Shown: positions 3,823 to 21,616 of the stretch, piece by piece
Layout of the letters: every line of letters starts with the position of its first letter
Position numbering within the stretch: position 1 is the first letter of the stretch
NCBI RefSeq assembly: GCF_001412575.1
Contig: NZ_CP011834.1
Coordinates: forward strand, 930,001 to 994,000
Direction: 5' to 3'
Length of the DNA stretch: 64,000 nucleotides
Origin: Limnohabitans sp. 103DPR2
GTDB lineage: Bacteria > Pseudomonadota > Gammaproteobacteria > Burkholderiales > Burkholderiaceae_C
Position numbers and translations under genes: made by a program
The notes under the pieces: generated by a model
Told to the model about the DNA's origin: nothing
Databases searched by the model: none
The model's input: only the letters and a program-made list of their open reading frames with translations

Positions 3823-3863
3823 GGGCCTATAGCTCAGTTGGTTAGAGCAGAGGACTCATAATC
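3823..3863 (+). pseudogene. 5' half of host tRNA-Ile2 (CAU), interrupted by element E1
   Basis: The sequence starts with the acceptor strand GGGCCTA, then the D-arm AGCTCAGTTGGTTAGAGC, then the anticodon stem and loop GAGGA-CTCATAA-TC. After TC at 3863 it runs into unrelated AT-rich sequence instead of the rest of the stem, so no tRNA can fold here. The missing part is at 21572-21616 (and again at 28265-28309); joined, the halves give a complete 77-nt CAU tRNA with a closed acceptor stem. The body resembles betaproteobacterial tRNA-Ile2 (lysidine-modified CAU) more than elongator tRNA-Met, but that distinction is from memory. Confidence 0.9.
3855..3863 (+). repeat. attL core of E1
   Basis: CTCATAATC, the whole anticodon loop plus two stem bases of the host tRNA. 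It is repeated at 21572-21580. Flanking bases differ on both sides (GGA before and TATT after here; CTT before and CTTT after there), so the core is exactly nine bases. Confidence 0.85.
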
Positions 3864-3897
3864 TATTAAAATAGTTCTCGTATTTGTAAAATATCTA

Positions 3898-3911
3898 TAT
3901 AAATCAACAAC
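3898..3911 (+). repeat. Left terminal inverted repeat of E1 (probable integrase arm site)
   Basis: TATAAATCAACAAC is found here and as its exact reverse complement at 21535-21548. It lies 34 bases inside the left core and 23 bases inside the right core, as expected for integrase-binding arm sites. A shorter form (ATTGATTTATA) occurs at the same 23-base distance before the second tRNA 3' half at 28265. Confidence 0.7.
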
Positions 3912-3981
3912 TTACGTGTATTTTTTTTGTCAAAAATACACTACACACCGTCTACACACTTTTTGAGTTAGGCGAAGCAAG

Positions 3982-3999
3982 TTTTTTTAGGTAAAAACG
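3982..3999 (+). promoter_or_regulatory. Imperfect copy of the E1 18-bp palindromic operator
   Basis: TTTTTTTAGGTAAAAACG matches the element-wide palindrome CGTTTTTAC(G/T)TAAAAACG at 15 of 18 positions. It occupies the space immediately before the -10 box of the element's tRNA, so a protein bound here would control that tRNA promoter. Better copies are at 10653, 11192 and 14501. The regulator is unknown. Confidence 0.45.
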
Positions 4000-4005
4000 T
4001 ACAAT
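4000..4005 (+). promoter_or_regulatory. -10 box of the element-borne tRNA
   Basis: TACAAT, nine bases before the tRNA start at 4015. It matches the position and sequence of the -10 box of the host tRNA remnant, suggesting that the element's tRNA is expressed from its own promoter. Confidence 0.55.
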
Positions 4006-4014
4006 AGATGTAAC

Positions 4015-4301
4015 GGGGCGTTAGCTCAGTTGGTCAGAGCAGAGGACTCATATTTCTCAAATGTGCCTTACACGTGGAAACTGTGTAAGGGATGGTGTCA
4101 AATTCGATGAAACCTAAGTGTGGCAACACATATGGCAATGTCGAGCGAAGCTTAGTGCGAAAGCACTTTGAACGTGTAGAGACTTGACGGCACCCACCTA
4201 AGTACAGCGATGTATATGGTGAAGGCAAAGTCCAGCGAGTGATGAAAGTCACACAAAGCGGAATCCTTTGGTCGTTGGTTCAAGTCCAACACGCCCTACC
4301 A
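4015..4301 (+). tRNA. tRNA-Ile2 (CAU), intron-containing, element-borne replacement
   Basis: Exon 1 is 4015-4051 and exon 2 is 4262-4301, giving a 77-nt tRNA with encoded CCA. The acceptor stem GGGGCGT pairs with ACGCCCT (first pair G-U). The D-arm is AGCTCAGTTGGTCAGAGC, the anticodon stem GAGGA/TCCTT with loop CTCATAA, and the T-arm GTTGG-TTCAAGT-CCAAC. The anticodon CAT is 4049-4051. The body differs from the host tRNA in acceptor and T stems but is identical in the anticodon arm. It is either tRNA-Ile2, needing lysidine from TilS, or elongator tRNA-Met; I favour Ile2 because the Azoarcus homologue hosting this intron type is tRNA-Ile(CAU). Confidence 0.93.
4052..4261 (+). ncRNA. Group I self-splicing intron (Azoarcus-like, IC3)
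   Basis: A 210-nt insertion directly after anticodon base 36 of the tRNA. The 5' exon ends in CAT and faces an internal guide GTG at 4063-4065, leaving a terminal U-G pair at the splice site. Then follow P2 CCTTACAC/GTGTAAGG, the core segments GGTGTCAAATTC and CCTAAG, the P7-P3' region GTAGAGACTTGACGGCACCC, a P9 hairpin GTGA-TGAAAG-TCAC, and a final G (4261). I recognise this order and wording as the Azoarcus sp. BH72 tRNA-Ile intron (205 nt). No reading frame is encoded, so it cannot home by its own endonuclease. Confidence 0.93.
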
Positions 4302-4310
4302 ACGTGAAGG

Positions 4311-4340
4311 AGGACTGTGTAAAAGCAGTCCTTTTTTTTT
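4311..4340 (+). terminator. Rho-independent terminator after the element tRNA
   Basis: Stem AGGACTG (4311-4317) pairs with CAGTCCT (4326-4332) over an 8-nt loop, followed by a run of nine T. It ends the tRNA transcript. The next gene starts right behind it, so that gene either has its own promoter or depends on read-through. Confidence 0.85.
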
Positions 4341-4350
4341 GGAGACTTAT

Positions 4351-4965
4351 GTGTCGTTTATAGTCAAAGCACCCATTAAATTTGACCCGCCACTTTGGGC
4401 TGAATATGAGGAAAGACACAAGGTAGCGGCATTGACTCCGCTCTTTAACAAAGCGGCAGACGTCAATAGATTCCAAGCTCGTTACAGATTAGCAAGGGCG
4501 TTTAGAGGACTACTGCTTGAAGGATACTCAGACACGACAAAAGCAGGCTACGACGCATTGACCAAAGTGTCCTTATATTGGAGTGCGTTTGAGCAGATGA
4601 TGTACGCCCTTCACATACCTGACCCTCGTTATTTTTTAGGAACCTACAAATTTGTGCTCAATCTCAAAAAGATTGAGGACATAGACAGTGAAAGAAGGTT
4701 CTTTGGGTTTGTCAAAGACAAAATTGACAGAAAAGACTTGAAGAGTAAATTGAAAACGTACATAGATAGCGGTAGCGGAAATGTTTTTTTATTGGCTAAG
4801 TGCGTAAGACACATATACCTGCACGGACATTTGACTGCGAATGTGAGAGGGCTGTCGCCGCAAGACATCGCTTCAATTTGTGATTTTTTATGTGAAGCGT
4901 TGTTGAAGGTAATGGATGCTGAATTTGAGGCGAGAGTATTGGATTTGAAAAAGGTATACGAGTAA
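4351..4965 (+). CDS. hypothetical protein, possible HEPN-domain protein
   Basis: 204 aa from the GTG at 4351, preceded by GGAG at 4341-4344; a TTG at 4339 is an alternative start. The protein is mostly helical by composition. Near residue 153 it has R-H-I-Y-L-H, fitting the Rx4H signature of HEPN-type RNases; the rest gives no confident match. It lies just behind the replacement tRNA and before the integrase, so an RNA-related or defence role is possible but unproven. Codon use is AT-rich like the rest of the element. Confidence 0.5.
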   Translation: MSFIVKAPIKFDPPLWAEYEERHKVAALTPLFNKAADVNRFQARYRLARAFRGLLLEGYSDTTKAGYDALTKVSLYWSAFEQMMYALHIPDPRYFLGTYKFVLNLKKIEDIDSERRFFGFVKDKIDRKDLKSKLKTYIDSGSGNVFLLAKCVRHIYLHGHLTANVRGLSPQDIASICDFLCEALLKVMDAEFEARVLDLKKVYE

Positions 4966-5032
4966 ATTTTTTCAAATTACACTACACACTTACTTGGTTG
5001 CTCTTTTTTCAAGTTGAAATTAAAGTGCGTTT

Positions 5033-6433
5033 ATGTCCGCAAAGAAAGAGACAACACACATCATCACAGAAGGCGAACTCGTCCTGTACAGACGTGAACG
5101 CAGTTCAATCTGGCAATGTCGCTACAAGGTTGGTGGTGTGTGGCAACGAGCGTCAACAAAAGAACGGAAATTGAAGGACGCAAAAGAGGTAGCAAAAGAG
5201 TTGCGAATTACGGCTGAGATTCGTAAGCGTGACAACTTGCCAGTCATCACTCGCAAGTTTAGAGACGTTGCCAAACTTGCTGTACAGCGTATGGAGCAGA
5301 AGATCGCCAACGGTGATGGCAAAGTTTCCTACAAAGATTACATACGCATCATCAATGAGTACCTGATCCCAATTTTGGGCAACAGACTAATCACAAACAT
5401 TGACAGTACGGCATTGGACTATTTGGATGCGGAACGCATACGAATGATGGAGAGAATTCCAAGTAACAGCACGATGCTCAGTCAAAACGCCGCACTGAAT
5501 TTGGTTTTTGATGAGGCTGTTTTGCGTAACTTTTTAACTGACCTCAATCGTCCAAAACTTGAGGCGAAAGGAAAGAAGAGCACACGTCATCCAGCCTTCA
5601 CGTTGACTGAGATACAGGCTGTCATCAATAACTTTGAAGCGTGGGTTGAGCGGGCACGTAACGCACACAGCAAAGAGATGCGTCAAATAATGCGTGACTA
5701 TTCTGAGATGCTGATTGATACGGGAGCACGACCAGGCAAAGAGTTGATGAACTTGAAATGGAAGCAGATCAAATTCACTATGAATCCAAAACAAACGCAC
5801 ACAGGTGAGTTCGTCGTTGGAGATGATGGTGAAAAAGAAGAGATTGTTTTAACTGATCTGAACAGGGGTGTTGAGTTAATTGTTACGGGTAAGACTGGTA
5901 CACGTGAAATTGTTGGAAGACAGCCAACTGTCAAAGTGCTGGAGCGAATTGCTCGTCGTGTTTATGGCGTCAAAAATAACATCATTGATCCGTTCAAAGA
6001 TGTTGTGACACCAAACAATGATGACTTCGTATTGCGTACAAAAGAAAAGAAGCAAGACGTAAGTCCTGCGTTTCAACATATGTTTGAGCGTTACTTGGAT
6101 GAGCACAACTTGCTGTACGACCCAAAGACTGAGCAAAACCGTGTTTTCTACAGTTTCCGTCACACATACGCAACGCTGGCACTGACGCACGATAAAGTGC
6201 CAATTCACACGCTTGCCAAACAGATGGGTACAAGTGTGCTGATGATTGAGCGTCACTACAGTCATCTGAAAGTAATTGAAGCAACAGAGCAATTGCGTGG
6301 ACAAGAAACACGACGAAGAATCGCCTCAACTTCAACTGTTGAAGAAATCTATCAGTCAGCACAAGCAAAGAAAAAAGCAGAGTTGCTGGCAAGAAAAACA
6401 GCAATGAAGAAATCTACAAAGAAGGGCAAGTAG
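5033..6433 (+). CDS. int: tyrosine recombinase/integrase of E1
   Basis: 466 aa. The N-terminal 75 residues look like an arm-binding domain, followed by a SAM-like core-binding domain (about 75-175) and a C-terminal catalytic domain. Catalytic residues visible are R233 (DTGARPGKEL), R376 in YSFRHTYAT and the nucleophile Y409 in ERHYSHL. The usual first His of the HxxR box is Ser, and the GH motif before the Tyr reads MGTS. Its place next to attL identifies it as the probable integrase acting on CTCATAATC. It is preceded by a short AT-rich gap and overlaps the next small gene by one base. Confidence 0.93.
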   Translation: MSAKKETTHIITEGELVLYRRERSSIWQCRYKVGGVWQRASTKERKLKDAKEVAKELRITAEIRKRDNLPVITRKFRDVAKLAVQRMEQKIANGDGKVSYKDYIRIINEYLIPILGNRLITNIDSTALDYLDAERIRMMERIPSNSTMLSQNAALNLVFDEAVLRNFLTDLNRPKLEAKGKKSTRHPAFTLTEIQAVINNFEAWVERARNAHSKEMRQIMRDYSEMLIDTGARPGKELMNLKWKQIKFTMNPKQTHTGEFVVGDDGEKEEIVLTDLNRGVELIVTGKTGTREIVGRQPTVKVLERIARRVYGVKNNIIDPFKDVVTPNNDDFVLRTKEKKQDVSPAFQHMFERYLDEHNLLYDPKTEQNRVFYSFRHTYATLALTHDKVPIHTLAKQMGTSVLMIERHYSHLKVIEATEQLRGQETRRRIASTSTVEEIYQSAQAKKKAELLARKTAMKKSTKKGK

Positions 6434-6633
6434 TGAGTAACTCAAATACAAAACCATTTCCAAAATTCTCAGACTATCCACAAACTGAAGCAGGGTGGAA
6501 TCACTACGATGAAGAATGGGTATCTCGTCGTCGTATGACGCCTAACGTAGCAGAGATTCCAAAAGAGGCACTTGAAGAACATTGGGCATCAATGTCGCTT
6601 GGACGTGAAAAAGGTTGGAAGGAGCAGGAATAG
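6433..6633 (+). CDS. hypothetical protein (66 aa)
   Basis: Starts with GTG, sharing one base with the integrase stop, and is followed two bases later by another small gene, so the three form one transcription unit. The protein is hydrophilic, rich in Pro, Trp and Glu, with no signal peptide or membrane segment. The position suggests a small accessory (excisionase-like) protein, but no helix-turn-helix can be recognised. Function unknown. Confidence 0.55.
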   Translation: MSNSNTKPFPKFSDYPQTEAGWNHYDEEWVSRRRMTPNVAEIPKEALEEHWASMSLGREKGWKEQE

Positions 6634-6635
6634 TG

Positions 6636-6920
6636 ATGGACAAATACGCTGACCTACAACAAGAGTTGGTGAAGTCATTGAAAGAAAGACTGCTGGCTAT
6701 TGAGTACGATTTGGGAAAGAAGAATTTTTTCTTTGCTGATGTAGAAATAGAACATCACATCTTTGATATTTTGGGAGATCAACTACAGAAAAAAACAGCC
6801 TACGCTGAAACAGTTTCTGATTTGCTATTTGAAACAAAACTTAAGCGAGAAGCTTTTGATAGGCGAGTGCGAGAGCGTGTTTACGATGATTTATACGAAG
6901 CGTTAGGTGGCTTGAAATAA
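6636..6920 (+). CDS. hypothetical protein (94 aa)
   Basis: The ATG at 6636 is preceded by GGAGCAGG; an in-frame upstream codon at 6615 would overlap the previous gene. The protein is charged and helical (many Lys, Glu, Asp), resembling a coiled-coil or small DNA-associated protein, with no known motif. It is the third gene of the integrase operon. Function unknown. Confidence 0.55.
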   Translation: MDKYADLQQELVKSLKERLLAIEYDLGKKNFFFADVEIEHHIFDILGDQLQKKTAYAETVSDLLFETKLKREAFDRRVRERVYDDLYEALGGLK

Positions 6921-6928
6921 CGCATACA

Positions 6929-6943
6929 CCGCCATTTTGGCGG
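6929..6943 (+). terminator. Short hairpin behind the integrase operon
   Basis: CCGCCA-TTT-TGGCGG forms a six-base-pair GC-rich stem in otherwise AT-rich DNA, eight bases after the last stop of the operon. No T-run follows, so termination efficiency is doubtful. Confidence 0.35.
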
Positions 6944-7006
6944 GACTCAGGTTGTCCATTTGATGCTTAGAACTAATACTGTGTTCACCCTTAAAGGAAC
7001 ACAGAA

Positions 7007-7372
7007 ATGGTTGAAGAAAATGAATTGCTCGCAACTCTGAAACAGTTCACAGGTTGTGATCAGTTAGCAAGATTGACACGCACAGTCTTGCTCACAGAAG
7101 GCTCACGCTACCTTGCTGAAGCCGCAGAGTGCTTTTGGTTGTTTGATGTGTACGCATCTCACTTGAGCGGTGTTGATAGCAACAAAGATTGGTTCACTTG
7201 CCTAAAACTCACAAAAATTAACCAATCAGCATCTGTATCAATTGAGGATGGCAACGGTAGGGCGTTAGCAAAGCAGAAGATAGAGTACACAGATTTTCCA
7301 TTATCTGCCATCACTCTCTACGGCTGTTGGACGGGTGAGTTTTGGGTGTTGATGCTGACAAGTGAGTACTGA
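7007..7372 (+). CDS. DUF6876-like protein
   Basis: 121 aa, ATG preceded by AAAGGAAC. The order of motifs FTGCDQLARL, ECFWLFDVYASHL, SIEDGNGRALAKQKIEYTDFPL and the C-terminal LMLTSEY corresponds to what I remember of DUF6876, a small soluble family on plasmids and other mobile elements, without assigned function. It stands alone between two hairpin-rich gaps and has no obvious partner. The family name is from memory and should be treated as probable. Confidence 0.6.
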   Translation: MVEENELLATLKQFTGCDQLARLTRTVLLTEGSRYLAEAAECFWLFDVYASHLSGVDSNKDWFTCLKLTKINQSASVSIEDGNGRALAKQKIEYTDFPLSAITLYGCWTGEFWVLMLTSEY

Positions 7373-7488
7373 AGCAAATTAGGCATCAAAAACACGTCAA
7401 AAAAGCCCTACAACGTTGCCTTAAAAAGCCGTTAAACCGTGTCGCAAACGGAATTGAAAACGACAGTTTGTACGGTGCCTACAACACA

Positions 7489-7671
7489 TCACAAGGATTT
7501 GAAAGCAAGCGTAGAAATTGTGTCTCTCGCTTTTGCGAGTTTTTGACGTTCTCTCTCTGCCTTTAAGTTTTTCGCTGCCGCATCCTTCGTTCTTTTTAGT
7601 GCCTCAATTCTTGCCTTTTCAGGCGTCATAGGTCCAATTGGTTTGATTCCTTTTAGTTCATTTATGGTCAT
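7489..7671 (-). CDS. hypothetical small basic protein (60 aa)
   Basis: The minus-strand ATG is preceded by AGAAGGAG at good spacing, which is the main support for this being a real gene. The product is very rich in Lys, Arg and Ala and probably helical, like small nucleic-acid-binding proteins. No known domain. Its promoter region lies between 7672 and 7780. Confidence 0.5.
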   Translation of the reverse strand: MTINELKGIKPIGPMTPEKARIEALKRTKDAAAKNLKAERERQKLAKARDTISTLAFKSL

Positions 7672-7783
7672 AAAAAACTCCTTCTCAACATACTTATCAG
7701 TAAGTCAAAAAGGAGCACGAGTTAGTGAATCTAATTGATTGAATGGTCTACTTGAAAAATTACATAGGTTCGCAGTTCATCAA

Positions 7784-8227
7784 TCACTTCAGAAAGCCTG
7801 CACGGAGTGCACCACTTGTAGCTTCAATTTGTTGATCAAGTTCGCCTTGCTCAACAGCCAATTTTAATGATTCAAGTGCTGTTAGCAACTCATCACCGTT
7901 TGACACTTCAATTGCGTTTTTACCTTTTGCGTCAAATTGGATTTGTTTGCTTCCGTACTTACAGAACAGGTTGATTTTTCCGCTGTCATTGATGTGCCAC
8001 CATTCACGCACTTTTTTAACTGATTCAATGGTCTTGCGTTCACCTGTTTGTTTGTTCACATAGGTTTTCAAGCGAGTGGGAGCGTATGTGCGTCCCTCTT
8101 TTTGTGCTTGAGCAAGTTGAATCTGTTCATAAATCTTGTTGCTCAACTTATTTCTGCGTTGAATCACAGGCGAAATGCCCTGTTTTTTCTTGCTCGCTAC
8201 GAGCTTGAGATTTGAAAGAATGCTCAT
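7784..8227 (-). CDS. DUF6641-like protein
   Basis: 147 aa. The N-terminus MSILSNLKLVASKKKQG, the central EWWHINDSGKINLFCKYGSK and the C-terminal LKLAVEQGELDQQ match my memory of DUF6641, a small protein family found on plasmids and integrative elements. It is basic at the N-terminus and acidic at the C-terminus. It is transcribed divergently from the 8336 gene. Function unknown; family assignment from motif memory. Confidence 0.6.
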   Translation of the reverse strand: MSILSNLKLVASKKKQGISPVIQRRNKLSNKIYEQIQLAQAQKEGRTYAPTRLKTYVNKQTGERKTIESVKKVREWWHINDSGKINLFCKYGSKQIQFDAKGKNAIEVSNGDELLTALESLKLAVEQGELDQQIEATSGALRAGFLK

Positions 8228-8335
8228 TACGATCGTCCTATAAAGTTAATAAGAACTTAACTTTAGTTTCAGAGAAGCTGGGAGAGCAACCTCAATATTT
8301 CAGTCTCCTTTTCTTTGGTTTTACTAAATAAGAGT

Positions 8336-8926
8336 ATGAGACAGTACAACGCAAAAGACATTGAATCTATGTTTAATCAGCACGAGCAACACGTCAGCCA
8401 CGTTGTTGTTGCCCACACATTACATCGCCCTTATGTAGCGAGTACAGATGTGGGACGCTTCAAGCACGTGCGAGCAGATCAGTACATCAAAACAAAGATG
8501 GAGCAGACGAGCAAAGACACAAGACACGCATTGAACTGCTTTTACAAATTACTTTATCCAACTCACTCTAATAGACCAACTCAAAATCCCAATCTCTTTA
8601 AGCCTCTGACATTCGTAACGATTGAAGGGGCAAATCAAACAACTGACAGATCACAAACAATTCACGTAAACATCTCTTTAGGCAACTTACCCGCAGTACT
8701 CACTACAGAAGACATTGAAACACTATTTAGGCACGCTTGGCACGATAAGGCACATCAATCAACTGATGTGAAAGCATACGAATACTACAAAGTAGACGAG
8801 GCTTCACATTGGGCTGGTTACTCATTAAAAGAAGCACAACAAAGCACACGCAAGGCGTGGGACACAAACAGCATTTGGGATGTAAGCAACTGCTGGATTC
8901 CTCACACCGCCCTTAACGCAGACTGA
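8336..8926 (+). CDS. hypothetical protein, weakly replication/mobilisation-like
   Basis: 196 aa from the ATG at 8336; an in-frame GTG at 8315 would add seven residues. The N-terminus contains HTLHRPYVAS and an H-rich stretch; the middle has HVNISLGNLPAVLTTEDIETLF. The general look recalls small phage or plasmid Rep-like proteins that contain His-rich motifs, but no complete HUH or primase motif is present and I do not assign it. It stands alone, followed by a hairpin and a 0.5-kb non-coding stretch. Confidence 0.55.
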   Translation: MRQYNAKDIESMFNQHEQHVSHVVVAHTLHRPYVASTDVGRFKHVRADQYIKTKMEQTSKDTRHALNCFYKLLYPTHSNRPTQNPNLFKPLTFVTIEGANQTTDRSQTIHVNISLGNLPAVLTTEDIETLFRHAWHDKAHQSTDVKAYEYYKVDEASHWAGYSLKEAQQSTRKAWDTNSIWDVSNCWIPHTALNAD

Positions 8927-9461
8927 AGTCACTTTAAGGTTCTTACAAGACTACGAATCGAATGAGGGGTTCGTAGTTCTTTGTCACACTTGAATGATTC
9001 ATACATAGATAAAACACTCAAACATTGAATCAAACAACACACAGAACAAACACAGTGACACATAGTGAACACAGCAAACGAACTGAATCAACTATAGAAA
9101 ACTGTAAGTTGAATAATTGAATACAACACACGATAGAAATAGCAGTACTTAAACGCAATGAATTAAAGCGTCTACAAGCGTAGATTTTTATGGGTTGGGT
9201 ACTTTGGTAGTGGACTTCGCTAACAAACGCTTGTAGGGCTTGTATTTCAATCTGTGTTCTAAAAGCCACAGAAAACTCATAAATACGAAATCAAAGAAAA
9301 ATGCTGAAAAGTGCGGTTGTTCAATTAAGTCGTTGATTTTGAACAAAACAGCATAGAAACCCGCCAGATTGACGGGTTGATTACATAAAGGTTGCTCAGA
9401 CCTAACTTCAGAAATTAAGCTTATTTCAAGTTATTTATTTGATTACGCAAAGGAGCAACAA
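8927..9461 (+). other. AT-rich non-coding stretch
   Basis: 535 bases with no credible gene. It contains an inverted repeat ACTACGAA...TTCGTAGT right behind the 8926 stop (about 8951-8978, terminator-like without a T-run), a long inverted repeat at 9172-9236 (listed separately), and a small CCCGcCAGATTGaCGGG hairpin near 9360. The rest is A/C-rich on the plus strand. Confidence 0.6.
9172..9236. repeat. 10-bp inverted repeat around a 45-nt G/T-rich loop
   Basis: CTACAAGCGT (9172-9181) is exactly complementary to ACGCTTGTAG (9227-9236). The intervening 45 bases are rich in G and T (GGGTTGGGTACTTTGGTAG). It may be a structured RNA or a recombination site for the recombinase gene 225 bases downstream. 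No family is recognised. Confidence 0.5.
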
Positions 9462-10034
9462 ATGTCACAAGCAAAAACATTGAACGAACAGGAAATTAAA
9501 CAGGTACTTGACTATGTGAGTACGAAAAAATATGCCAAACGAGATAGGGCATTGATTCTTACAAGTCATTTGAGTGGAATGCGTGTTGGAGAGATCGCAT
9601 CGCTGACTGTTGGACACGTGTTAGATCAAAATGGAAATATCAAAAATGAAATTCGTTTGACAGCAGAGCAAACGAAAGGGAAACATCCTCGTACTGTGTT
9701 TGTGAGTTCAAAACTCAAAGAGGAACTTGCTAACTACATTCAGTTGATTCGTACAGATGACAAAGAACGGTCATTGTTTCCAACTCAAAAGAATCCTCGT
9801 ATGGGATTCACAGCGAACACATTGACACAACACTATTTGAGTTTGTACAAAGCCGCTGGTGTTGATGGGGCGAGTAGTCACAGTGGACGCAGAACGTATG
9901 CCACATCAATCGCATCACAGGGCGTAGGTTTACGTGTGTTAATGCGTTTGATGGGGCATCGTAATGTGAGCACAACCGCCGTATATATTGACGCTAATGA
10001 CAATATGCTTCGTAATGCGGTTGAACTTGTTTGA
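9462..10034 (+). CDS. compact tyrosine recombinase (catalytic domain only)
   Basis: 190 aa, about the size of FimB/FimE-type recombinases, lacking the N-terminal arm- and core-binding domains. The complete catalytic set is visible: R41 (GMRVGEI), K72 (QTKGKHP), H140-x-x-R143 (SHSGRR), H166 (MGHRN) and Y175 (AVYID). RBS AAAGGAG precedes the ATG. It could invert or resolve DNA within the element, or assist the 466-aa integrase. The nearby inverted repeat (9172-9236) is a candidate site. Confidence 0.88.
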   Translation: MSQAKTLNEQEIKQVLDYVSTKKYAKRDRALILTSHLSGMRVGEIASLTVGHVLDQNGNIKNEIRLTAEQTKGKHPRTVFVSSKLKEELANYIQLIRTDDKERSLFPTQKNPRMGFTANTLTQHYLSLYKAAGVDGASSHSGRRTYATSIASQGVGLRVLMRLMGHRNVSTTAVYIDANDNMLRNAVELV

Positions 10035-10042
10035 GCAATAAA

Positions 10043-10549
10043 TTAGTATTTGTTTGCTAATTTATTAAATATTAAAGATTCAACTTGAAACTCAGCAGAT
10101 ATATCTCTGATTTTCTCGTTGACTTTATCAACATTTACATAAACATCTAAAGTAAAAGAATAATTATTTGTATTTTCTTCAGTAAGTTCAAATACAAAAT
10201 GCCACTTCTGCTCAAAATTATCATTACGCTGAATATTCAGCAAAATGCTATCAGTCGTTAACTTTAATAACTCGTTGATTTCGTCATTTGTGAAAAATAC
10301 TTTAGATAATGACGTAGCCTTCATTGATTCAATCAACTCGTAAGAGTGATAGATTACTCCGCCATAACTTGCTTCTGTGACCCCATCAGACGCTTCATTG
10401 ATATTTGTGTACATACCTGACAAGTCTTCGTCTATGTAATAAGCAATTCTTTTGACATTACGTTTGATGCCACAAGACTCTAATAGTTCATTAGCAAACT
10501 CGTTGAGTTTTTCAGTATTGTTAAGTGTTTGTGATTTGATATTTTTCAT
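10043..10549 (-). CDS. hypothetical protein (168 aa)
   Basis: RBS TAAGGAAA precedes the minus-strand ATG. The product is acidic, Asn-rich, with no membrane segment or known motif, and its codons are very AT-rich. The stop is nine bases from the convergent recombinase stop. The upstream region carries a conserved module ending in the perfect 18-bp palindrome at 10653-10670, shared with the next gene to the right. Confidence 0.55.
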   Translation of the reverse strand: MKNIKSQTLNNTEKLNEFANELLESCGIKRNVKRIAYYIDEDLSGMYTNINEASDGVTEASYGGVIYHSYELIESMKATSLSKVFFTNDEINELLKLTTDSILLNIQRNDNFEQKWHFVFELTEENTNNYSFTLDVYVNVDKVNEKIRDISAEFQVESLIFNKLANKY

Positions 10550-10590
10550 TTGAATTTCCTTATAAATTAAAAGTGATAGTTATTGTCAAC

Positions 10591-10670
10591 ATTGATCTCA
10601 ACACAACAGTTGAGAGATTTCGAGCGATCAAAGTTCTATAAGATCAACTCATCGTTTTTACGTAAAAACG
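10591..10670. promoter_or_regulatory. Conserved upstream module, copy A
   Basis: TGATCTCAAC, then TCGAGCGA at offset 28, then the palindrome CGTTTTTAC at offset 60. The same three blocks occur with the same spacing, within one base, at 11133-11209 upstream of the next minus-strand gene, while the bases between have diverged. A TTGACA hexamer lies just inside the module edge on the minus strand. Confidence 0.5.
10653..10670. promoter_or_regulatory. Perfect 18-bp palindromic operator of E1
   Basis: CGTTTTTACGTAAAAACG is its own reverse complement. Near-identical copies at 11192-11209 and 14501-14518 and a weaker one at 3982-3999 all lie in promoter or leader regions of the element, as expected for a shared repressor or activator site. 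Confidence 0.6.
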
Positions 10671-10713
10671 TGAGACTGGAGTAATGATGGAAAACTTCAG
10701 TCTCACAAATAAG

Positions 10714-11082
10714 TTATGCGAACAGTTGTTCACTCAACTTTGCCATTTCATCCCATTTATCCAATGGAATGTCAAACACACGTGCGGGATTGCTTGGGAG
10801 ATAAACACGAGCGTGTTCTTCACAAGGTTGCCCGCCAATGTGTTTGTGTACTAATGCCATTGACAGAGGCAAATACGCTTTACGCCAGTTGTTACCTGTT
10901 TGCTTTTGAATACGACGACGTTGTGACTTGTTTCCAACATCACTAAGCATTGCCTTGTAGTGCTCGTCAATAACTTCCTCATACTTGCTGTGCTCATCAG
11001 TACTTCTGTTATACCCACGCATAGCACCCGCTACAGCCGCTGTATAAATCTGTTCACCAGTCGCAAAAATTACTTTACTCAT
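10714..11082 (-). CDS. hypothetical protein (122 aa)
   Basis: The start is placed at 11082, where AAAGGAG precedes ATG on the minus strand; the frame is open 22 codons further but without ribosome binding site. The protein contains a basic central segment (KSQRRRIQKQTGNNWRKAY) and a C-terminal part ending in DKWDEMAKLSEQLFA. No family recognised. It shares its upstream module with the 10043-10549 gene, so both are probably under one regulator. Confidence 0.6.
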   Translation of the reverse strand: MSKVIFATGEQIYTAAVAGAMRGYNRSTDEHSKYEEVIDEHYKAMLSDVGNKSQRRRIQKQTGNNWRKAYLPLSMALVHKHIGGQPCEEHARVYLPSNPARVFDIPLDKWDEMAKLSEQLFA

Positions 11083-14484: not shown

Positions 14485-14500
14485 TGATGCTCCAAAAGGT

Positions 14501-14595: not shown

Positions 14596-15219
14596 ATGGC
14601 TGAAACCGTTTACGTGCTCACAAATGAGGCAATGGAAGGTTTGGTAAAGATTGGGCGTACAACGACCAGTGTTGAGCAACGAATACGTGAACTTGACAAC
14701 ACAAGTATGCCTCTGCCGTTTCAGTGTTTTTACGCTGGTGAGGTTGCTAACTCTGCGTTGGTTGAAGGCAAACTTCATCGAATCTTTGCTGACAAGCGAA
14801 TTCGCAACAACAGAGAGTTTTTTCGCATAGACCCTAATCAAGTGCGTGAGGCAATACAGTTGGCTGAATTGCGAGATGTAACACCTCGCTATGACGTTGT
14901 AGTTGACGCTGAAGACGTACAAGCATTGAAAAAGGCTGTTGCGACTGAAGAGAGAAGAACTCGTTTGCGATTCACTGAATTGGGAATAAAGACTGGATCA
15001 GTACTGACATTCCTCAAAGATAACAAGATAACTTGCCAAGTCGTTGCTGACGGGAAAGTTGACTTTGATGGAAAAGTAATGTCTCCAAGTGCTTCAGCTC
15101 TTATTGCTGTAAAGAGATTGGGATATGAATGGGCAGCTGTTAGTGGAAGCGATTATTGGGAGTTTGAAGGTGAAACTCTCACTGCCAGAAGATTAAGAAT
15201 TGAGGATGAACAAGAATGA
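14596..15219 (+). CDS. GIY-YIG (T5orf172-type) nuclease family protein
   Basis: 207 aa. The N-terminal 100 residues match the T5orf172/GIY-YIG layout: VYVLTNEAMEGLVKIGRT (GIY and YIG equivalents), then VEQRIRELD and EGKLHRIFADKRIRNNREFF with the expected Arg and Glu positions. The C-terminal part (CQVVADGKVDFDGK, SPSASALIAVKRLGY, WEFEGETL) resembles RAMA-like domains of restriction systems. It overlaps the methyltransferase start by four bases (ATGA), making it part of the restriction-modification operon. Whether it is an active nuclease or a sensor is not known. Confidence 0.75.
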   Translation: MAETVYVLTNEAMEGLVKIGRTTTSVEQRIRELDNTSMPLPFQCFYAGEVANSALVEGKLHRIFADKRIRNNREFFRIDPNQVREAIQLAELRDVTPRYDVVVDAEDVQALKKAVATEERRTRLRFTELGIKTGSVLTFLKDNKITCQVVADGKVDFDGKVMSPSASALIAVKRLGYEWAAVSGSDYWEFEGETLTARRLRIEDEQE

Positions 15220-17243
15220 GTTTGTTAGAAAAATTACCCAAAATATTTGAACGCAGTAGAAAAATTGCGGAGCAAATACTTGAAGAATCAGAAGGTAAGC
15301 AAAAAATTAGCCTATTGACACGTGAAATAGTGAATCCTTCACGTGATGTTTCTATCAATGATCTATTCAGTAGATTGAAAAGTACTGATACAAATACTGT
15401 TACAAACAGGTTGATTTATGGTGACAATTTACTTGCTATGTCAGCATTATTAACGGGTAATGATTTTAATGAAAGCATTAGAGGTAAATTAGATCTAATT
15501 TATATTGACCCACCTTTTGATTCTAAAACTGATTATCGAACTAGAGTCAAACTGCCAGATTGTGAAATTGAACAAAAACCAACAGTTATTGAACAATACG
15601 CATATGGAGATACTTGGTCTGAAGGAACTTCATCTTACTTAGAAATGCTGATACCACGTTTATTTTTGATGAAAGAAATGCTGTCAAACAAAGGAATATT
15701 GGCAGTACATATTGGACCAAGTGTTTCTCATTATGTAAAAATAATATTAGACGAAATATTTGGTAAAGATCGAATGCTAAATGAAGTTATTTGGCAGCGA
15801 AGACTTGGGCAGTCTAATGCTGACAGAAAAAAAATGGGAGTGGTAGTAGATTCTATTTTCATTTATTCAATGAGCGAAGATTACACATTTAATCCTCAAT
15901 ATTCATTTGAGAATGGAGAGGCTTATGTTAAAGAGAGATATACAAAGGTCAATAAAGATGGGCGACGATACAAAACTGATAATTTAGGAAACCCCGCTCC
16001 GCGTCCAAATTTACGTTATGAATATAAAGGGTGTAAGCCACCGCCAAATGGATGGGCGGTTTCATTAGAAACAATGATGCGTATGGATGCTGAAGATAGA
16101 TTGGAATTCCCAGCTAAGCCTGGTGGCAGACTTATGCGTCGTCAATACTTAGATGAGTGGAAGGGGAAGCCCATTCAATCGTTATGGGATGATTTGCCGC
16201 CAATCAACTCACAAGCTGTAGAAAGAATTGGTTTCGACACACAAAAGCCTGAAAGGCTAATTGAACGAATAATGAATTTCTTCACAGTAGAAGGAGATTA
16301 TGTAGCTGATTTTTTTGGTGGATCAGGTACTACAGCCGCAGTCGCTGAACGTATGAAAAGACGATGGCTAATAACTGATTTGGGTAAACCTGCTTGTATG
16401 GTAATGCGAAAACGTTTGATCGATATGAATGCTCAGCCGTTTATATATCAAGCTATTGGGGATTATCAAGTTGAAACGGTGAAAAGCACGTTAGGAAAAC
16501 GTTTTGGTATGGGCGAACTTGCCAAAATTGTCTTAGATCTTTACGGGGCTATTCCATTACCAGTTGATAATAATCCAAATAAAGATAGAGGATATATAGG
16601 GAAAACATTAGTTATTTGTGATTCTCCCAATAAAATTACTGGATTACCTACGCTCAAAAAAGCACAGGCTTTGCGTGATCAGTTAATGGGCGGGTGGGAT
16701 AAGGTTATTGTGTTAGGTTGGAATTTCGCATCTGATATTGGACATTCTGTTTCTCAATTACAAGATAGCAAAATTGAAGTTTTGGTTATACCGCCAGATT
16801 TGATGGATAGATTAAGAAAACGCGGAAGCTTTGAAAAATTAAAAAATACTATTAGATTTTCTAGTCTCCAATACTTAACGGCAAAGCAACCAGTTGTCAC
16901 AAAAGGTGAAGAGGACCTTATCGAAGTTGAGCTTGAAAATTATGTGCTTTTGTCACCAGAAGCAATCAATTTAGATGAGGACAACAGAAAAAAATTACAA
17001 AGTATTGTGAACAATGATCCTTTGTCTTTGATTGAATACTGGGCGATTGATGTCAACTATGACGGAGAGATTTTCCGCTCTGTTTGGCAAGATTACAGAG
17101 GAAATACTGATAAAGATAGAGACGATTTACACGTGGTAAGAAAGGCTGTTATAAAAACTGATCCGTTGATTGGACTCAGAAGAATTTGCGTACGTGCTGT
17201 GGATGTATTTGGATTTGAGTCTGAAGTTGATTTTGAGGTTTGA
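15216..17243 (+). CDS. mod: Type III restriction-modification methyltransferase (Mod)
   Basis: 675 aa. The catalytic motif DPPF is at residues 98-101 (LIYIDPPFDSK), and the SAM-binding motif FFGGSGTTAAV follows around 365, the motif IV-before-I order of beta-class N6-adenine methyltransferases such as type III Mod. The region between them is the expected target-recognition part. The last 250 residues are probably for contact with Res. The start overlaps the GIY-YIG gene and the stop lies one base before the Res start, so the genes are translated together. Confidence 0.93.
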   Translation: MSLLEKLPKIFERSRKIAEQILEESEGKQKISLLTREIVNPSRDVSINDLFSRLKSTDTNTVTNRLIYGDNLLAMSALLTGNDFNESIRGKLDLIYIDPPFDSKTDYRTRVKLPDCEIEQKPTVIEQYAYGDTWSEGTSSYLEMLIPRLFLMKEMLSNKGILAVHIGPSVSHYVKIILDEIFGKDRMLNEVIWQRRLGQSNADRKKMGVVVDSIFIYSMSEDYTFNPQYSFENGEAYVKERYTKVNKDGRRYKTDNLGNPAPRPNLRYEYKGCKPPPNGWAVSLETMMRMDAEDRLEFPAKPGGRLMRRQYLDEWKGKPIQSLWDDLPPINSQAVERIGFDTQKPERLIERIMNFFTVEGDYVADFFGGSGTTAAVAERMKRRWLITDLGKPACMVMRKRLIDMNAQPFIYQAIGDYQVETVKSTLGKRFGMGELAKIVLDLYGAIPLPVDNNPNKDRGYIGKTLVICDSPNKITGLPTLKKAQALRDQLMGGWDKVIVLGWNFASDIGHSVSQLQDSKIEVLVIPPDLMDRLRKRGSFEKLKNTIRFSSLQYLTAKQPVVTKGEEDLIEVELENYVLLSPEAINLDEDNRKKLQSIVNNDPLSLIEYWAIDVNYDGEIFRSVWQDYRGNTDKDRDDLHVVRKAVIKTDPLIGLRRICVRAVDVFGFESEVDFEV

Positions 17244-17244
17244 T

Positions 17245-20145
17245 ATGAAGAAAGATTATCTTCCCCTCTCAGAAGCTTTAACGTTAAAAGTCAACGAATC
17301 TTGTATTGGATTAGAAAGTGGTGTTGCTGACATATATGAAATGGTAAGTGAAGCAACAGCAAACCTTCTTCGCTTTTGGTTCCTACAAGACTTTGTTGAT
17401 TTACGTAGAGGCTTGAATTTTCATACTGGTCAACGTCAATCAATACTCAATACTATCTACGCACACGAAGTTTTAAGCAAGACTTCACTGAAAGATCTCT
17501 ACAAAACGCTCGCACCTGATGCTTTGGTAAAAGATAGCTTGCTAACACACGTAAGTCAAAGCAAATACAACCATCCAAAATATTGCCTAAAAATGGCAAC
17601 TGGCACAGGCAAGACGTGGGTCTTACAAGCACTGATGATTTGGCAAATCATCAACAAATTAGAAAATCCATCTGATCTCAGATTTACCAAAAATTTTTTG
17701 TTAGTCGCACCTGGTCTTATCGTTTACGACAGGTTGTTAGACGCTTTGAAGGGAAAGGTTAAAGATGGCGTTCGTAACTTTGATACATCAGACATAAAAA
17801 TATATAGTGAGCTGTTCATACCAGACAACTACAGAGAGGCAGTTTTTAGCTTTGTAAATAACAACACGTGTGAAAAACGTGAGATTGGGAAAAAGGTCAC
17901 AAGCAATGGACTAATCGCTGTGACAAATTGGAACGCATTGATAACTGAGGATGACGAGTCAGAGCCAGAGGTTGATACCTATGGAGTAGATATTGATCCA
18001 GTTGCTGTTATTAAAGATCAACTGCCTATAGTTCCTAATACTACAGCTGGTAATAGTTTGGATGTCTTAGACAACAAGGCAAATAAAGGTGGTGTACTTG
18101 AGTACTTGAAGTATTTACCAGACTTGATGAATTTCAACGATGAAGCACATCACATACACGAAGTTCGAAAAGGCGGCGAGTTAACAGAGGTTGAATGGCA
18201 AAAAAGTTTGATCGCTATTGCCGCTTCTAAAGGCGAGCGTTTCATACAAGTTGACTTTTCTGCTACGCCCTATAACCAAATAGGAACTGGTGAAAAAGCT
18301 AAGAAAGCATTTTTCCCTCACATCATTTCAGACTTTGATTTAACTGAGGCAATCAAATTGTGCCTTGTTAAAAGCATTGCTTTGGATGTGCGTAAAGAAG
18401 TCAATGACTTAGAAGATTTGGACTTTAAGGCTGAGCGTGATGAAGAGGGCAAAGTTCAGTTAAGTGAAGGTCAGCGAAAAATGCTTCGTGCTGGCTTAAC
18501 TAAGCTAAGACGACTTGAGGAGGCATTCAAACTCATTGATGAGAATCGTCGCCCAAAAATGTTGGTTGTTTGTGAAGACACAAAAGTAACGGAGAAGGTC
18601 GTTGATTTTTTAATTGCTGAAGGCTTAGAAACAGAAGACGTCTTAGGCATTGATAGCGGCAAAAAAGCGGAACTAAGTGAGGGTGAATGGAAAGAAGTCA
18701 AAGAGCAACTCTTCAATGTAGACAAACATCCTAAGCCTCGTGTAATTGTTAGTGTGTTGATGTTGCGTGAAGGCTTTGACGTTAACAACATCTGTGTAAT
18801 TGTTCCATTGCGTAGCTCTGCGGCAAACATTTTATTAGAGCAAATTGTTGGACGTGGCTTACGTTTGATGTGGCGTGGTGAAGATGTTTACACGGAGATG
18901 AGACGTGAGAACAGGGAGCTTTTTGACAAAGGCAAAGAACCTAAAAATCTGATTGATGTGCTGTCAATCGTTGAACACCCTCGTTACAGAGATTGGTATA
19001 AGCAGATGCTTGGGAACTTAGTTGGTGAAGTCAGTGATGACTCTTCGACAACAGCAAGTGGTGATCTGATCAACGTTGGGCTTATTGACGGCTACGAAGA
19101 ATATGATTTTCAAATACCAGTCATTCTGCGTGATGCTGAGGAACTGATTGAAGAGCAAGTTATTCATCCAAAGAATCTGCCGCCTTTTAAGCAGATGGGA
19201 ATCGCAGAACTCAAGTCAATCATTGGCAAAGGTGATAACTGGATTAGCACTGAGTTACAGAGCGAGACTATGTTTGGTAACTACAAAGTCAGTGGCTCTA
19301 TATTGAACGTAGAGGGCTACAACGACTACCTTTCACGTGTGACTCATCGCATTAGTTACGCCCTATCTAATCCCGTAGAAAAGGGTGGTCGCAAGAATGT
19401 CAATAAACCATTCATAGGCTTTGACACAGTAAAGCTCGCACAAGCGATTGACATTTACATTCGCCAGTATTTGTTTAGTTCTGAATTTGATCCATTTGCT
19501 GATGAAAACTGGCGAGTGCTACTGTTACGTGATGTGCTTGATCACATTGTGCGTGTCACAGCATTAGCTTTTTCAGAAAGCTTTGACAAAACGTTTGAAG
19601 AAGACGCACAGGTTGAGCACAGGCTGTTGAGTAGTGTTAAGACCTTAACAGTTAGTGAGACTTCTTCAATTGCTACCGTTAAAAGCATCTATGAACGGTT
19701 GCCTTTTCCAAAACGAAGTGGCGGGTTGGAGCTTAAGTTTATGGAGTGGTGTAACAAGGACAGTAGTGTTCAGGCATTTTGTAAATTACACGAATACAAG
19801 CACGACTTCCTATGGCTTCGCTACGTAAAAGAAGATGGAATGTTGGGTCGCTACTCGCCTGACTTCATTGTGCGTTGCGGGACTAACGTTTACTTGGTTG
19901 AGACTAAAGCACAAAGCGATGTGACGAAGGCTAATGTTCAACGAAAGTTAAAGGCGGCTACGTTGTACTGTGAGCGTATTAACAAGCTTCTGCCAGAGCA
20001 ACGAAACAATGAAATGTGGCATTACGCACTTGTGGGTGAGGGAATTGTTGAGCAGTATTTGAAGGGTAATGGTTTGGTAAGCGAGTTGCTTAACTACGCA
20101 AGAGTGAGACAGACATCCACTGCGGATCAGCAAAAGCTGATTTGA
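17245..20145 (+). CDS. res: Type III restriction endonuclease subunit (Res)
   Basis: 966 aa. Superfamily-2 helicase motifs: Walker A MATGTGKTW (about residue 117), DEAH in FNDEAHHIHE, motif III FSATPYN, and motif VI in EQIVGRGLRL. The C-terminus has a PD-(D/E)xK endonuclease signature, SPDFIV...LVETKAQ (about residue 875-895). With the adjacent Mod it forms an ATP-dependent type III restriction enzyme cutting unmodified DNA. The ATG follows the mod stop by one base. All key motifs are intact, so it looks functional. Confidence 0.93.
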   Translation: MKKDYLPLSEALTLKVNESCIGLESGVADIYEMVSEATANLLRFWFLQDFVDLRRGLNFHTGQRQSILNTIYAHEVLSKTSLKDLYKTLAPDALVKDSLLTHVSQSKYNHPKYCLKMATGTGKTWVLQALMIWQIINKLENPSDLRFTKNFLLVAPGLIVYDRLLDALKGKVKDGVRNFDTSDIKIYSELFIPDNYREAVFSFVNNNTCEKREIGKKVTSNGLIAVTNWNALITEDDESEPEVDTYGVDIDPVAVIKDQLPIVPNTTAGNSLDVLDNKANKGGVLEYLKYLPDLMNFNDEAHHIHEVRKGGELTEVEWQKSLIAIAASKGERFIQVDFSATPYNQIGTGEKAKKAFFPHIISDFDLTEAIKLCLVKSIALDVRKEVNDLEDLDFKAERDEEGKVQLSEGQRKMLRAGLTKLRRLEEAFKLIDENRRPKMLVVCEDTKVTEKVVDFLIAEGLETEDVLGIDSGKKAELSEGEWKEVKEQLFNVDKHPKPRVIVSVLMLREGFDVNNICVIVPLRSSAANILLEQIVGRGLRLMWRGEDVYTEMRRENRELFDKGKEPKNLIDVLSIVEHPRYRDWYKQMLGNLVGEVSDDSSTTASGDLINVGLIDGYEEYDFQIPVILRDAEELIEEQVIHPKNLPPFKQMGIAELKSIIGKGDNWISTELQSETMFGNYKVSGSILNVEGYNDYLSRVTHRISYALSNPVEKGGRKNVNKPFIGFDTVKLAQAIDIYIRQYLFSSEFDPFADENWRVLLLRDVLDHIVRVTALAFSESFDKTFEEDAQVEHRLLSSVKTLTVSETSSIATVKSIYERLPFPKRSGGLELKFMEWCNKDSSVQAFCKLHEYKHDFLWLRYVKEDGMLGRYSPDFIVRCGTNVYLVETKAQSDVTKANVQRKLKAATLYCERINKLLPEQRNNEMWHYALVGEGIVEQYLKGNGLVSELLNYARVRQTSTADQQKLI

Positions 20146-20161
20146 TCTACGAAAGGGACTT

Positions 20162-20503
20162 ATGCTTTTCTTTACAAGTGCTCCCCTAATGAGTCGTTCG
20201 CTGGCACGTGACACTGAGCCACTTGCTAAGCCTACGGGATGGCAAACTGTTTCAAACGCCACTGTTCTTAAAGTTCAAAAAGGAACATACAGAAATGCTG
20301 TGTTCAGTGGTGTTTTTCTTGTTGATGAAGTTGAGACGAGTAAACACAAGGATTCAAAAGACGGTTGGTCAATTGCTATCGTCTATTGTTTATGGTTTGG
20401 AACAAGACTGAAAACACGTGGCATTGAATTGAAGTATCAAGCAGAAGGTTCTGAGTTGGTTAAGAACTACACAGGCGAAATTGTCTCTAATTTGTCTACT
20501 TAA
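20162..20503 (+). CDS. hypothetical protein (113 aa)
   Basis: Starts 16 bases after res, with GAAAGGGAC ahead of the ATG. No known domain; the middle contains an alternation of strands (VLKVQKGTYRNAVFSGVFLVDE) that suggests a small beta-rich fold. It probably belongs to the restriction operon transcript, together with the two genes that follow. Function unknown. Confidence 0.5.
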   Translation: MLFFTSAPLMSRSLARDTEPLAKPTGWQTVSNATVLKVQKGTYRNAVFSGVFLVDEVETSKHKDSKDGWSIAIVYCLWFGTRLKTRGIELKYQAEGSELVKNYTGEIVSNLST

Positions 20504-20518
20504 GGGCGTTGATCTTGT

Positions 20519-21070
20519 ATGAACAACGCTGTTTACTACTTGACAGGTATGGGCGGTCGCTTAGACGCAGGCTTGGGGCAAGGCTTGCTAAGTAGGGGCT
20601 TTGAGATAGCAGGTAGAGAGTTAGTTGGTGAGTTCAGAAAGTTAGATTTTCAGCAACAAGTTGATCTTGTTGTTAGTGACTTACAAAGTAACTTCTGGCA
20701 AGAGGACGCACGTGTCATTGCCAACTCTTTTGGTGCCTACTTGTTCCTACACGCACAAGCACAAATGGAGCCTTACATTGGCAAGGTGATCTTGCTTTCT
20801 CCAATCGTTGGTGAGTTTTCTAACGAGGAGACACGAATGAACTTCATACCGCCACTTGCTGACAAACTTCTACAACTTGCGAAGGCAAACAGTTTTCCAA
20901 TTCCAAAGCAATGCGAGGTTCACGTTGGCTCAGAGGACTGGCAGAGCAATCCCGCAAACGTGACAACGTTTGGCTCAATGTTGGGTATTGATGTGACGGT
21001 TGTTCCAAACGCTGGACATATGTTGCCAAAAGAGTATGTTGGTGACTTGTTGGATAAGTGGTTCAACTAA
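20519..21070 (+). CDS. alpha/beta hydrolase fold protein (RBBP9-like)
   Basis: 183 aa. A small serine hydrolase layout is visible: nucleophile Ser in IANSFGAYL (about residue 77, with N in place of the first Gly of GxSxG), Asp in VGSEDWQSNP (about 140), and His in NAGHMLP (about 164). Strands YYLTGMGG and KVILLSPIVG complete the fold. This is the look of RBBP9/YdeN-like proteins, whose substrates are mostly unknown. It lies 15 bases after the previous gene in the restriction operon. Confidence 0.7.
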   Translation: MNNAVYYLTGMGGRLDAGLGQGLLSRGFEIAGRELVGEFRKLDFQQQVDLVVSDLQSNFWQEDARVIANSFGAYLFLHAQAQMEPYIGKVILLSPIVGEFSNEETRMNFIPPLADKLLQLAKANSFPIPKQCEVHVGSEDWQSNPANVTTFGSMLGIDVTVVPNAGHMLPKEYVGDLLDKWFN

Positions 21071-21080
21071 GGAGACTGCT

Positions 21081-21362
21081 ATGTCGTTTTGGAACATCTT
21101 TGGAAGGTTTGCTGTGTCAGACACAGGTGAGACGATTCAAAAAGTCTCTGACACAACCAGCATCTCATCTGACGGTACAACTTACACAAAGATGGGTTCA
21201 ACAACTGTAGGCAGTGACGGTTCAGTGTTTACACAGATGGGCAGTTTCAGCACTGATGGCAGTACACGTATGGGAAGCACAGCGACAGGTTTAGGTGCTG
21301 TGTTCAATGACCGCAGAGAAGACAAGTTTGGGTTCAACACAGACGACGATGACAAGTGGTAA
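21081..21362 (+). CDS. hypothetical Gly/Ser/Thr-rich protein (93 aa)
   Basis: The ATG at 21081 has AAGGAG eight bases upstream and follows the hydrolase gene by ten bases. The central part is made of short repeats of the type TxMGSxxxxSDG (TYTKMGSTT, VFTQMGSFS, TRMGSTA), then an acidic tail DDDDKW. It resembles small secreted-like repeat proteins but has no signal peptide. Last gene of E1. Function unknown. Confidence 0.5.
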   Translation: MSFWNIFGRFAVSDTGETIQKVSDTTSISSDGTTYTKMGSTTVGSDGSVFTQMGSFSTDGSTRMGSTATGLGAVFNDRREDKFGFNTDDDDKW

Positions 21363-21534
21363 GTGCGTTTACACTTGTGTCAGAAGGTTAGTTGTTGTGT
21401 ACTGCCAAAGCGATTTCTGAAAAGTTTTTGTAGCGGAATAATTCTGCGAACTGAAATTGTTGGAAGTTATTTGTAACTAAAAACGATACGTTTCACTACA
21501 CACTTTGCTACACACCTGATAAATGACGTTGTAT

Positions 21535-21548
21535 GTTGTTGATTTATA
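21535..21548 (-). repeat. Right terminal inverted repeat of E1
   Basis: GTTGTTGATTTATA, exact reverse complement of 3898-3911, 23 bases inside the right core. CTACACAC-type direct repeats are also present near both ends (around 3940-3960 and 21495-21515) and may be further integrase-binding sites. Confidence 0.7.
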
Positions 21549-21571
21549 ACGATATTTATTTTGTAAAACTT

Positions 21572-21616
21572 CTCATAATCCTTTGGTCCCAGGTTCAAGT
21601 CCTGGTGGGCCCACCA
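21572..21616 (+). pseudogene. 3' half of host tRNA-Ile2 (CAU); attR of E1; 45-bp direct repeat copy 1
   Basis: CTCATAATCC, then TTTGGTC, T-arm CCAGG-TTCAAGT-CCTGG, acceptor strand TGGGCCC and ACCA. It pairs perfectly or by wobble with the 5' half at 3823-3863 but is now 17.7 kb away and preceded by element sequence, so it is not expressed as tRNA. The first nine bases are the E1 core. All 45 bases recur at 28265-28309. Confidence 0.9.

Follow-up and report, generated by a model that had tools for sequence, protein, structure and literature searches.

Limnohabitans element in a severed tRNA-Ile2(CAU) gene carries a predicted substitute tRNA with a group I intron inside the attachment core

The window analysed here is a stretch of 64,000 nucleotides (positions 930001-994000) from the single-contig, 2.95-Mb genome of the freshwater bacterium Limnohabitans sp. 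103DPR2; it contains a 17.7-kb integrative element inserted into the host tRNA-Ile2(CAU) gene at the anticodon loop. The host gene is severed at a 9-bp core, the site is empty in relatives, no other tRNA-Ile2 was found in the genome, and the predicted substitute gene carried by the element has an intron inside the core. It is likely that this core-breaking intron blocks the integrase from recombining the attachment site of the element (attP) with the substitute, while it would be spliced from the transcript.

The severed host gene and the interrupted substitute

All coordinates are those of the window and all features lie on its forward strand. The 5' half of the host gene (3823-3863) ends and the 3' half (21572-21616) begins with the core CTCATAATC; the halves are 100% identical to positions 1-41 and 33-77 of the rejoined tRNA, respectively, and ARAGORN folds them into a CAU tRNA of 77 nt if the core is counted only once. 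This identity confirms the split in the anticodon loop that a first-pass annotation of the same DNA had described. Its statement that neither junction restores a tRNA holds as well: ARAGORN finds none at either junction of the element, and the left attachment site runs on at 3863 into TATTAAAATAG and not into the tRNA 3' half, in other words there is no restoration of the 3' end as in a classical island. The core consists of the seven-base anticodon loop and up to two further bases, with the anticodon stem flanking it as an inverted repeat. On the element side, the core is flanked by a 27-nt inverted repeat (3889-3915 versus 21531-21557, 89% complementary), as expected for the putative arm sites of a tyrosine integrase. 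One copy lies in the left arm (3864-4014), which is also the promoter region of the substitute tRNA, has a -10-like box (read by eye) and is 96.6% identical over 149 nt in Limnohabitans sp. 63ED37-2 (G009); the other lies in the right arm (21471-21571). The predicted tyrosine integrase has 466 amino acids (5033-6433; PHROG 216 integrase, E 6e-10; no Pfam match at 0.001).

The substitute tRNA-Ile2(CAU) gene (4015-4301) starts 151 bp inside the left end of the element and has two exons (4015-4051 and 4262-4301) that give a 77-nt tRNA with an intron at position 37/38 (ARAGORN in intron mode). The intron (4052-4261, 210 nt) breaks the core between CTCAT and AATC and matches the group I intron family RF00028 (E 2.1e-11). 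The anticodon arm of the spliced substitute is identical to the arm of the host tRNA, which points to Ile2 identity, and the intact 17-mer is missing from the unspliced gene: thus, the intron lies inside the attachment core and the spliced tRNA would be canonical. Because the tRNA of the element is interrupted, ARAGORN with default settings reports none for the window; the default tRNA searches used here overlooked this gene. The first-pass annotation was right about a CAU tRNA of the Ile2 type within the element and wrong in calling it complete, as it missed the intron; the other 3' half of tRNA-Ile2, which starts at 28265, and the recurrence of the arrangement across genomes escaped it as well.

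The intron has the core structure of group I introns, and compensatory changes on both sides are found in 29 of 59 predicted pairs in an alignment of 26 introns (MAFFT alignment, RNAalifold structure; 28 loci were tried and two dropped, their ends not being located). The stretch with tRNA and intron matched one record of a phage collection and four of a plasmid collection, none of them spanning over half of the query. The 3' exon of the substitute has an identical 40-nt counterpart in plasmid NC_007949.1 of Polaromonas sp. JS666 (196494-196533), and plasmids of Tritonibacter mobilis have a 74% match to part of the intron.

All 39 other tRNA genes found in the complete genome were typed. Two have a CAU anticodon (L015 and L022) and, from their sequences, we take them to be elongator and initiator Met tRNAs; the only other Ile anticodon is GAT, present twice. 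No uninterrupted Ile2 arm was found elsewhere in the genome with up to three mismatches allowed. On the strength of the tRNA typing and the arm search we reject a second tRNA-Ile2 elsewhere in the genome, which the first-pass annotation had named as a refutation of its reading. The severed gene is thus single copy; AUA codons are present in genes, and the genome has a gene for the lysidine synthetase TilS. As no second intact tRNA-Ile2 was found, AUA decoding should rest on the gene of the element.

An addiction system had been proposed from this dependence, with cells dying for want of AUA decoding if they lose the element by faulty excision or segregation. The dependence is supported and the failure to find another tRNA-Ile2 in the genome is in favour of the proposal, but the rejoined halves are an intact tRNA, so that precise excision would restore the host gene and only imprecise loss would be lethal; moreover, addiction leaves both the intron and the altered anticodon stem of some related substitutes (described below) unexplained and appears quite improbable as the chief benefit. 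It is very improbable that the substitute is carried mainly for translating AUA-rich genes of the element itself. AUA makes up 57 of 263 Ile codons in 12 open reading frames (ORFs) of the element (4339-21070). Outside the element the proportion is 23 of 649 for a set of 35 ORFs called mechanically and 16 of 270 for 13 chosen neighbour ORFs; however, an AT-rich cargo alone could produce this bias, and a need for translation does not account for the host gene being severed at this very site, 151 bp away, or for the intron and altered stem.

Empty sites, tandem insertions and recurrence of the arrangement

A search of related genomes, proposed in the first-pass annotation, identified the empty site and the same arrangement in many genomes. 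In G007, an uninterrupted 77-nt tRNA directly follows a flank that is 92.8% identical to positions 3000-3822 of the window (823 bp). Two further genomes of the same genus as the window genome, G009 and L. parvus II-B4 (G002), were compared with their relatives. In many congeners with an uninterrupted gene, the match to the 1.2 kb upstream in G009 stops where the tRNA starts. A composite insertion separates the 5' half of G002 from the sole 3' half with uninterrupted core identified by pattern, the distance being about 79 kb; the upstream flank and the sequence past the 3' half adjoin an uninterrupted tRNA in G036 and G085 and, with about 110 bp unmatched on the right, in G010 (77-90% identity). 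In G002, two elements are joined in the order right arm, core, left arm, and the intron-bearing substitutes of both are intact; the further element has therefore used a junction and not a substitute. Loci L174, L202, L203 and L188 look like tandem junctions too.

These flanks also bear on the idea that the window has a classical island next to an unrelated, resident, intron-bearing tRNA, with the 5' half a stray duplicate. Classical-looking loci do exist among related integrases: L172, L184, L175, L210 and L221 keep or bring a 3' half, and the tRNA-Lys loci L196 and L213 have a restored tRNA and a displaced 3' half. For the window, the idea is hardly credible and a classical tRNA island is ruled out, since the upstream flank of the severed half abuts an intact tRNA in relatives and the junction holds left-arm sequence instead of a 3' half.

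The 5' pattern of tRNA-Ile2 was found in 76 of 90 Limnohabitans genomes, the assemblies being partly fragmentary; among the 14 genomes with no pattern match, four have a completeness of 90% or more and a contamination of 5% or less. Thirty-nine genomes have an uninterrupted tRNA-Ile2 (32 read from DNA; G040, G042, G045, G046, G047, G050 and G069 judged from pattern matches), 17 have a severed half with an intron-bearing gene about 185-212 bp further, four have a severed half at a contig end and 16 have an intron-bearing gene and no severed half within the stretch read. Hence, wherever the sequence reaches far enough, the severed half is followed by an intron-bearing gene (17/17; in G052, G077 and G082 the contig stops inside the intron), and no severed half is present at the 32 uninterrupted loci that were read, most of them fetched with up to about 1.5 kb on each side. 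The association has a Fisher p of 9e-7, uncorrected for ancestry and calculated on genomes that are not independent. Altogether, tRNA-Ile2 is intron-bearing in 33 of the 72 resolvable Limnohabitans genomes, which means that horizontal replacement of an essential tRNA gene can extend through a whole genus. Three forms of the intron are present in the genus, two of about 203-212 nt at position 37/38 and one of about 247-307 nt at position 33/34, and all of them break CTCATAA. The second form has an RF00028 score of 48.2 bits; the third, scored in the relative L222, has 25.9 bits (E 2e-4), well below the cut-off.

To cover integrases beyond the genus, a profile was built from 24 integrases; the best 80 of 184 matches were kept, corresponding to 79 loci, of which 77 were inspected (all except L209 and L215). 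At 22 loci, the 5' half of a severed tRNA-Ile2 is followed by a complete substitute; these and the window were re-checked, except for the severed half of L176, which was read by eye. Seventeen of the 22 substitutes, including that of L168 (from the same genome as G002), are intron-bearing and come from Limnohabitans, Polynucleobacter, Rugamonas, Rhodoferax, Sterolibacterium and other betaproteobacteria. The introns at the related-integrase loci are all inside the core, either at 37/38 or at 33/34 (for L178, L205 and L222, where ARAGORN places the boundary elsewhere, it was set by eye from the 3' exon), and the intron of Rugamonas is a fourth form with an RF00028 score of 78.2 bits. Four of the 22 substitutes are uninterrupted and have another, still paired anticodon stem (L173, L179, L200 and L204): GTCGA/TCGAT once, GGCGA/TCGCT twice and GAGAA/TTCTT once, compared to GAGGA/TCCTT in the host. 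L200 and L204 have the host 3' half at the right end, too. In a tree of the integrases (45 rows, including loci of the intron and other-stem types at which no severed half is visible and omitting L221, which is too short), the intron label needs seven changes at the fewest, with at least three forced by well-supported branches, and the other-stem group is one clade; the long branches L222 and L207 are insecurely placed.

No left end was recognised at many of the distant loci, including most of L228-L246. L180 is a related element with an other-stem substitute at a non-tRNA site containing ACTCATAATCC. In L219 and L220, from metagenome-assembled genomes of Methylophilaceae, the 5' half of a severed tRNA-Lys lies about 165 bp ahead of a related integrase; a complete tRNA-Lys is present 7.5 kb downstream in L220, and none is present on the stretch examined in L219.

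The intron as a proposed guard of the substitute

In the mechanism that we propose, the anticodon stem-loop would be the bacterial attachment site (attB), with the 7-nt loop CTCATAA as the strand-exchange region and the stem as the core-type binding sites. Because attP has no tRNA 3' half, integration would destroy the host tRNA and the substitute must supply it, and presumably only elements that bring a substitute would be tolerated. Without a guard, the substitute would offer the integrase a perfect attB some 150 bp away from attP and be open to self-integration, so that guards would be selected: the loop could be interrupted by an intron or the anticodon stem could differ, in both cases with the anticodon retained. 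The intron would take the site out of the DNA but not out of the RNA; once it is spliced and the tRNA is modified by TilS, AUA would still be read.

Alternatively, the intron may be incidental and offer no protection, the tRNA-Ile2 acquired by elements having contained this group I intron from the start. The same kind of intron is indeed found in tRNA-Ile2 genes without a recognisable severed half, and group I introns in bacterial tRNA genes have long been known (PMC3984707, as far as the excerpted text goes). We consider an incidental intron unlikely, however: unguarded substitutes are found at just one of the 22 severed loci and at none of the 17 in the genus, the intron-less substitutes have a different stem in four of five cases, four forms of the intron at two positions every one break the core, and the intron label has at least three forced changes on the integrase tree.

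Several observations weigh against the proposed guard. First, we infer function at every step, including recombination and splicing, from sequence, and the RF00028 score of the window intron (49.3 bits) is just under the gathering score of 50. Second, no recognisable severed half is found in 16 of the 33 intron-bearing Limnohabitans genomes and, outside the genus, 6 of 11 loci detected in a sample of the order (see below) have an intron-bearing tRNA-Ile2 alone within 900 bp. The pattern search can miss diverged halves, as the substitutes of G024 and G043 were seen by ARAGORN only; still, intron-bearing genes of this kind, with no severed half recognised nearby, mean that the intron may in some cases have been there before the element. 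Third, an integrase at least 95% identical is encoded in only three of the 90 genomes, which are three of the 17 split ones, and the cutting enzyme of the remaining split genomes is presumed. Fourth, L176 has a substitute with no guard that matches its host tRNA exactly, the one clear exception among the 22 loci; this rules out a guard without exception and means that a guard is not indispensable. Lastly, the four other-stem substitutes could simply be foreign tRNAs: the GGCGA/TCGCT stem is presumably that of the Escherichia coli tRNA-Ile2, and other-stem substitutes may therefore have been acquired as they are and not edited.

Resident genes, known systems and the rest of the element

A substitute might outlive its element and become the resident gene. 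In a sample of 399 genomes of the order, searched with a pattern for the 3' part of 37/38 introns (the 33/34 form is outside its coverage), 12 genomes matched, two of them Limnohabitans. Four of the 11 loci outside Limnohabitans have a severed half just upstream (L265, L271, L274 and L275), and no related integrase is present on the 3-kb stretch at L271, L274 and L275; a substitute can therefore persist after the element has been lost, or with the element lying beyond the stretch viewed. L264 (G465) has the 3' motif of a group I intron and no recognisable tRNA-Ile2 around it. L273, which we take to be the Azoarcus ribozyme, follows an rpoD-like reading frame (by eye) and has no severed half. 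Among the related-integrase loci, L207 has an intron-bearing tRNA-Ile2 without a severed half next to the integrase and after an hrcA-like reading frame, possibly a cleaned-up state.

In the intron class, the 5' exons of the severed half and of the substitute are direct repeats about 185-260 bp apart, and a deletion between the two would yield the single-gene state. Tentatively, we therefore raise the possibility, which we hold to be somewhat less than even, that the group I introns of bacterial tRNA-Ile2 genes are attachment-site guards that were delivered by elements: the host gene would be destroyed and recombination between the 5' halves would leave the intron-bearing gene as the only tRNA-Ile2, possibly including the Azoarcus ribozyme. 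If so, the guard role would give the self-splicing intron a selectable job and explain its place in that loop.

The Azoarcus tRNA-Ile(CAU) intron, presumably of class IC3, is in the same gene, at the same insertion point 3' of the anticodon, and belongs to the same fold family (RF00028); the introns described here differ in being carried on integrative elements, within an attachment core. Bacterial tRNA group I introns have been called potentially phenotypically neutral (excerpted text of PMC3984707), and the guard suggests a selectable function for introns often regarded as neutral passengers. Like classical tRNA islands, the element has a tyrosine integrase, a tRNA target and a displaced 3' half at the far end; unlike these, it carries a whole tRNA gene and has no 3' half at the junction.

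Severing with replacement is already known from actinophages. In tRNA-dependent lysogeny, the host tRNA is severed and the phage supplies the replacement, as shown by experiment (Guerrero-Bustamante and Hatfull, 2024; PMC10865867, here and below cited from part of its text), and tRNA-Ile2-CAT is among the targets. Common to both systems are the tyrosine integrase, a short core in a tRNA gene (8-17 bp in the actinophages) and a host tRNA that is not rebuilt (PMC10865867), and the element described here likewise encodes a tRNA of the severed isotype. In contrast, the elements described here are from Proteobacteria, have an integrase without a match in 50,697 phage records and carry a guarded substitute (intron or other stem), and substitutes persist where no close integrase remains. 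The tRNA of the phage Fionnbharth, the one phage checked, is uninterrupted. Its tRNA-Lys and the 300 bp before its integrase have no common string of more than 7 nt, and one of the shared 7-mers is the loop CTTTTAA; this comparison within one phage genome is consistent with the other-stem solution. The authors speculate that a second plasmid may take a plasmid tRNA as attB (PMC10865867); a guard would be a concrete answer to this problem, only speculated on in the text cited, that the replacement tRNA is itself an integrase target.

The idea that disrupted tRNA genes guard against integration is credited to Randau and Soll (PMC4390854, in the part cited here). An interrupted tRNA gene escapes the integrase in both cases, but there the genes of the host are protected and here the element carries the protected gene; the present case joins severing plus replacement with disrupted-tRNA protection in one system. 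No prior description of an intron or altered stem as integrase guard was found among the open-licence titles and abstract openings listed; what appears to be new is the guard, together with the resident leftovers and an integrase family that has no phage matches. The resistance of interrupted tRNA genes to integration, proposed long before, can now be put to a direct test.

The integrase of the window is 98% identical to a protein of Limnohabitans sp. 63ED37-2 annotated as 'tyrosine-type recombinase/integrase'. It has no match in 50,697 phage records, two distant relatives only in a search of viral contigs, matches to five plasmid records, all below 60% identity, and, used as a profile, none to solved structures. 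No phage structural family was found among the ORFs searched (10 against PHROGs and 17 against Pfam, small ORFs not included), and from this and the results for the integrase in the phage records and viral contigs we reject a phage origin of the element. Between the substitute tRNA and the integrase lies an ORF of 208 amino acids (4339-4965) with no Pfam, PHROG or PADLOC match that is 100% identical in G009. A second, short tyrosine recombinase of 190 amino acids follows at 9462-10034 (PF00589, E 9e-27). The cargo further includes a type III restriction-modification operon (14593-20145) with a T5orf172-domain protein, Mod (15216-17243) and Res (17170-20145); its T5orf172-domain gene matches the candidate defence model PDC-S57.

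Several tRNA-Ile2 3' halves each are present in G079, G044, G048 and G018, genomes with no integrase at least 95% identical. The second 3' half of the window (28265-28309) is of the host type, with 100% identity to positions 33-77, and lies in a 105-nt repeat that is 81% identical to 21530-21634. It is preceded by a segment (21617-28264) with LysR, SDR, TRAP transporter and transketolase genes, named by eye from sequence, and 21617-28309 as a whole resembles a tandem cassette of the classical kind that entered this tRNA-Ile2 earlier.

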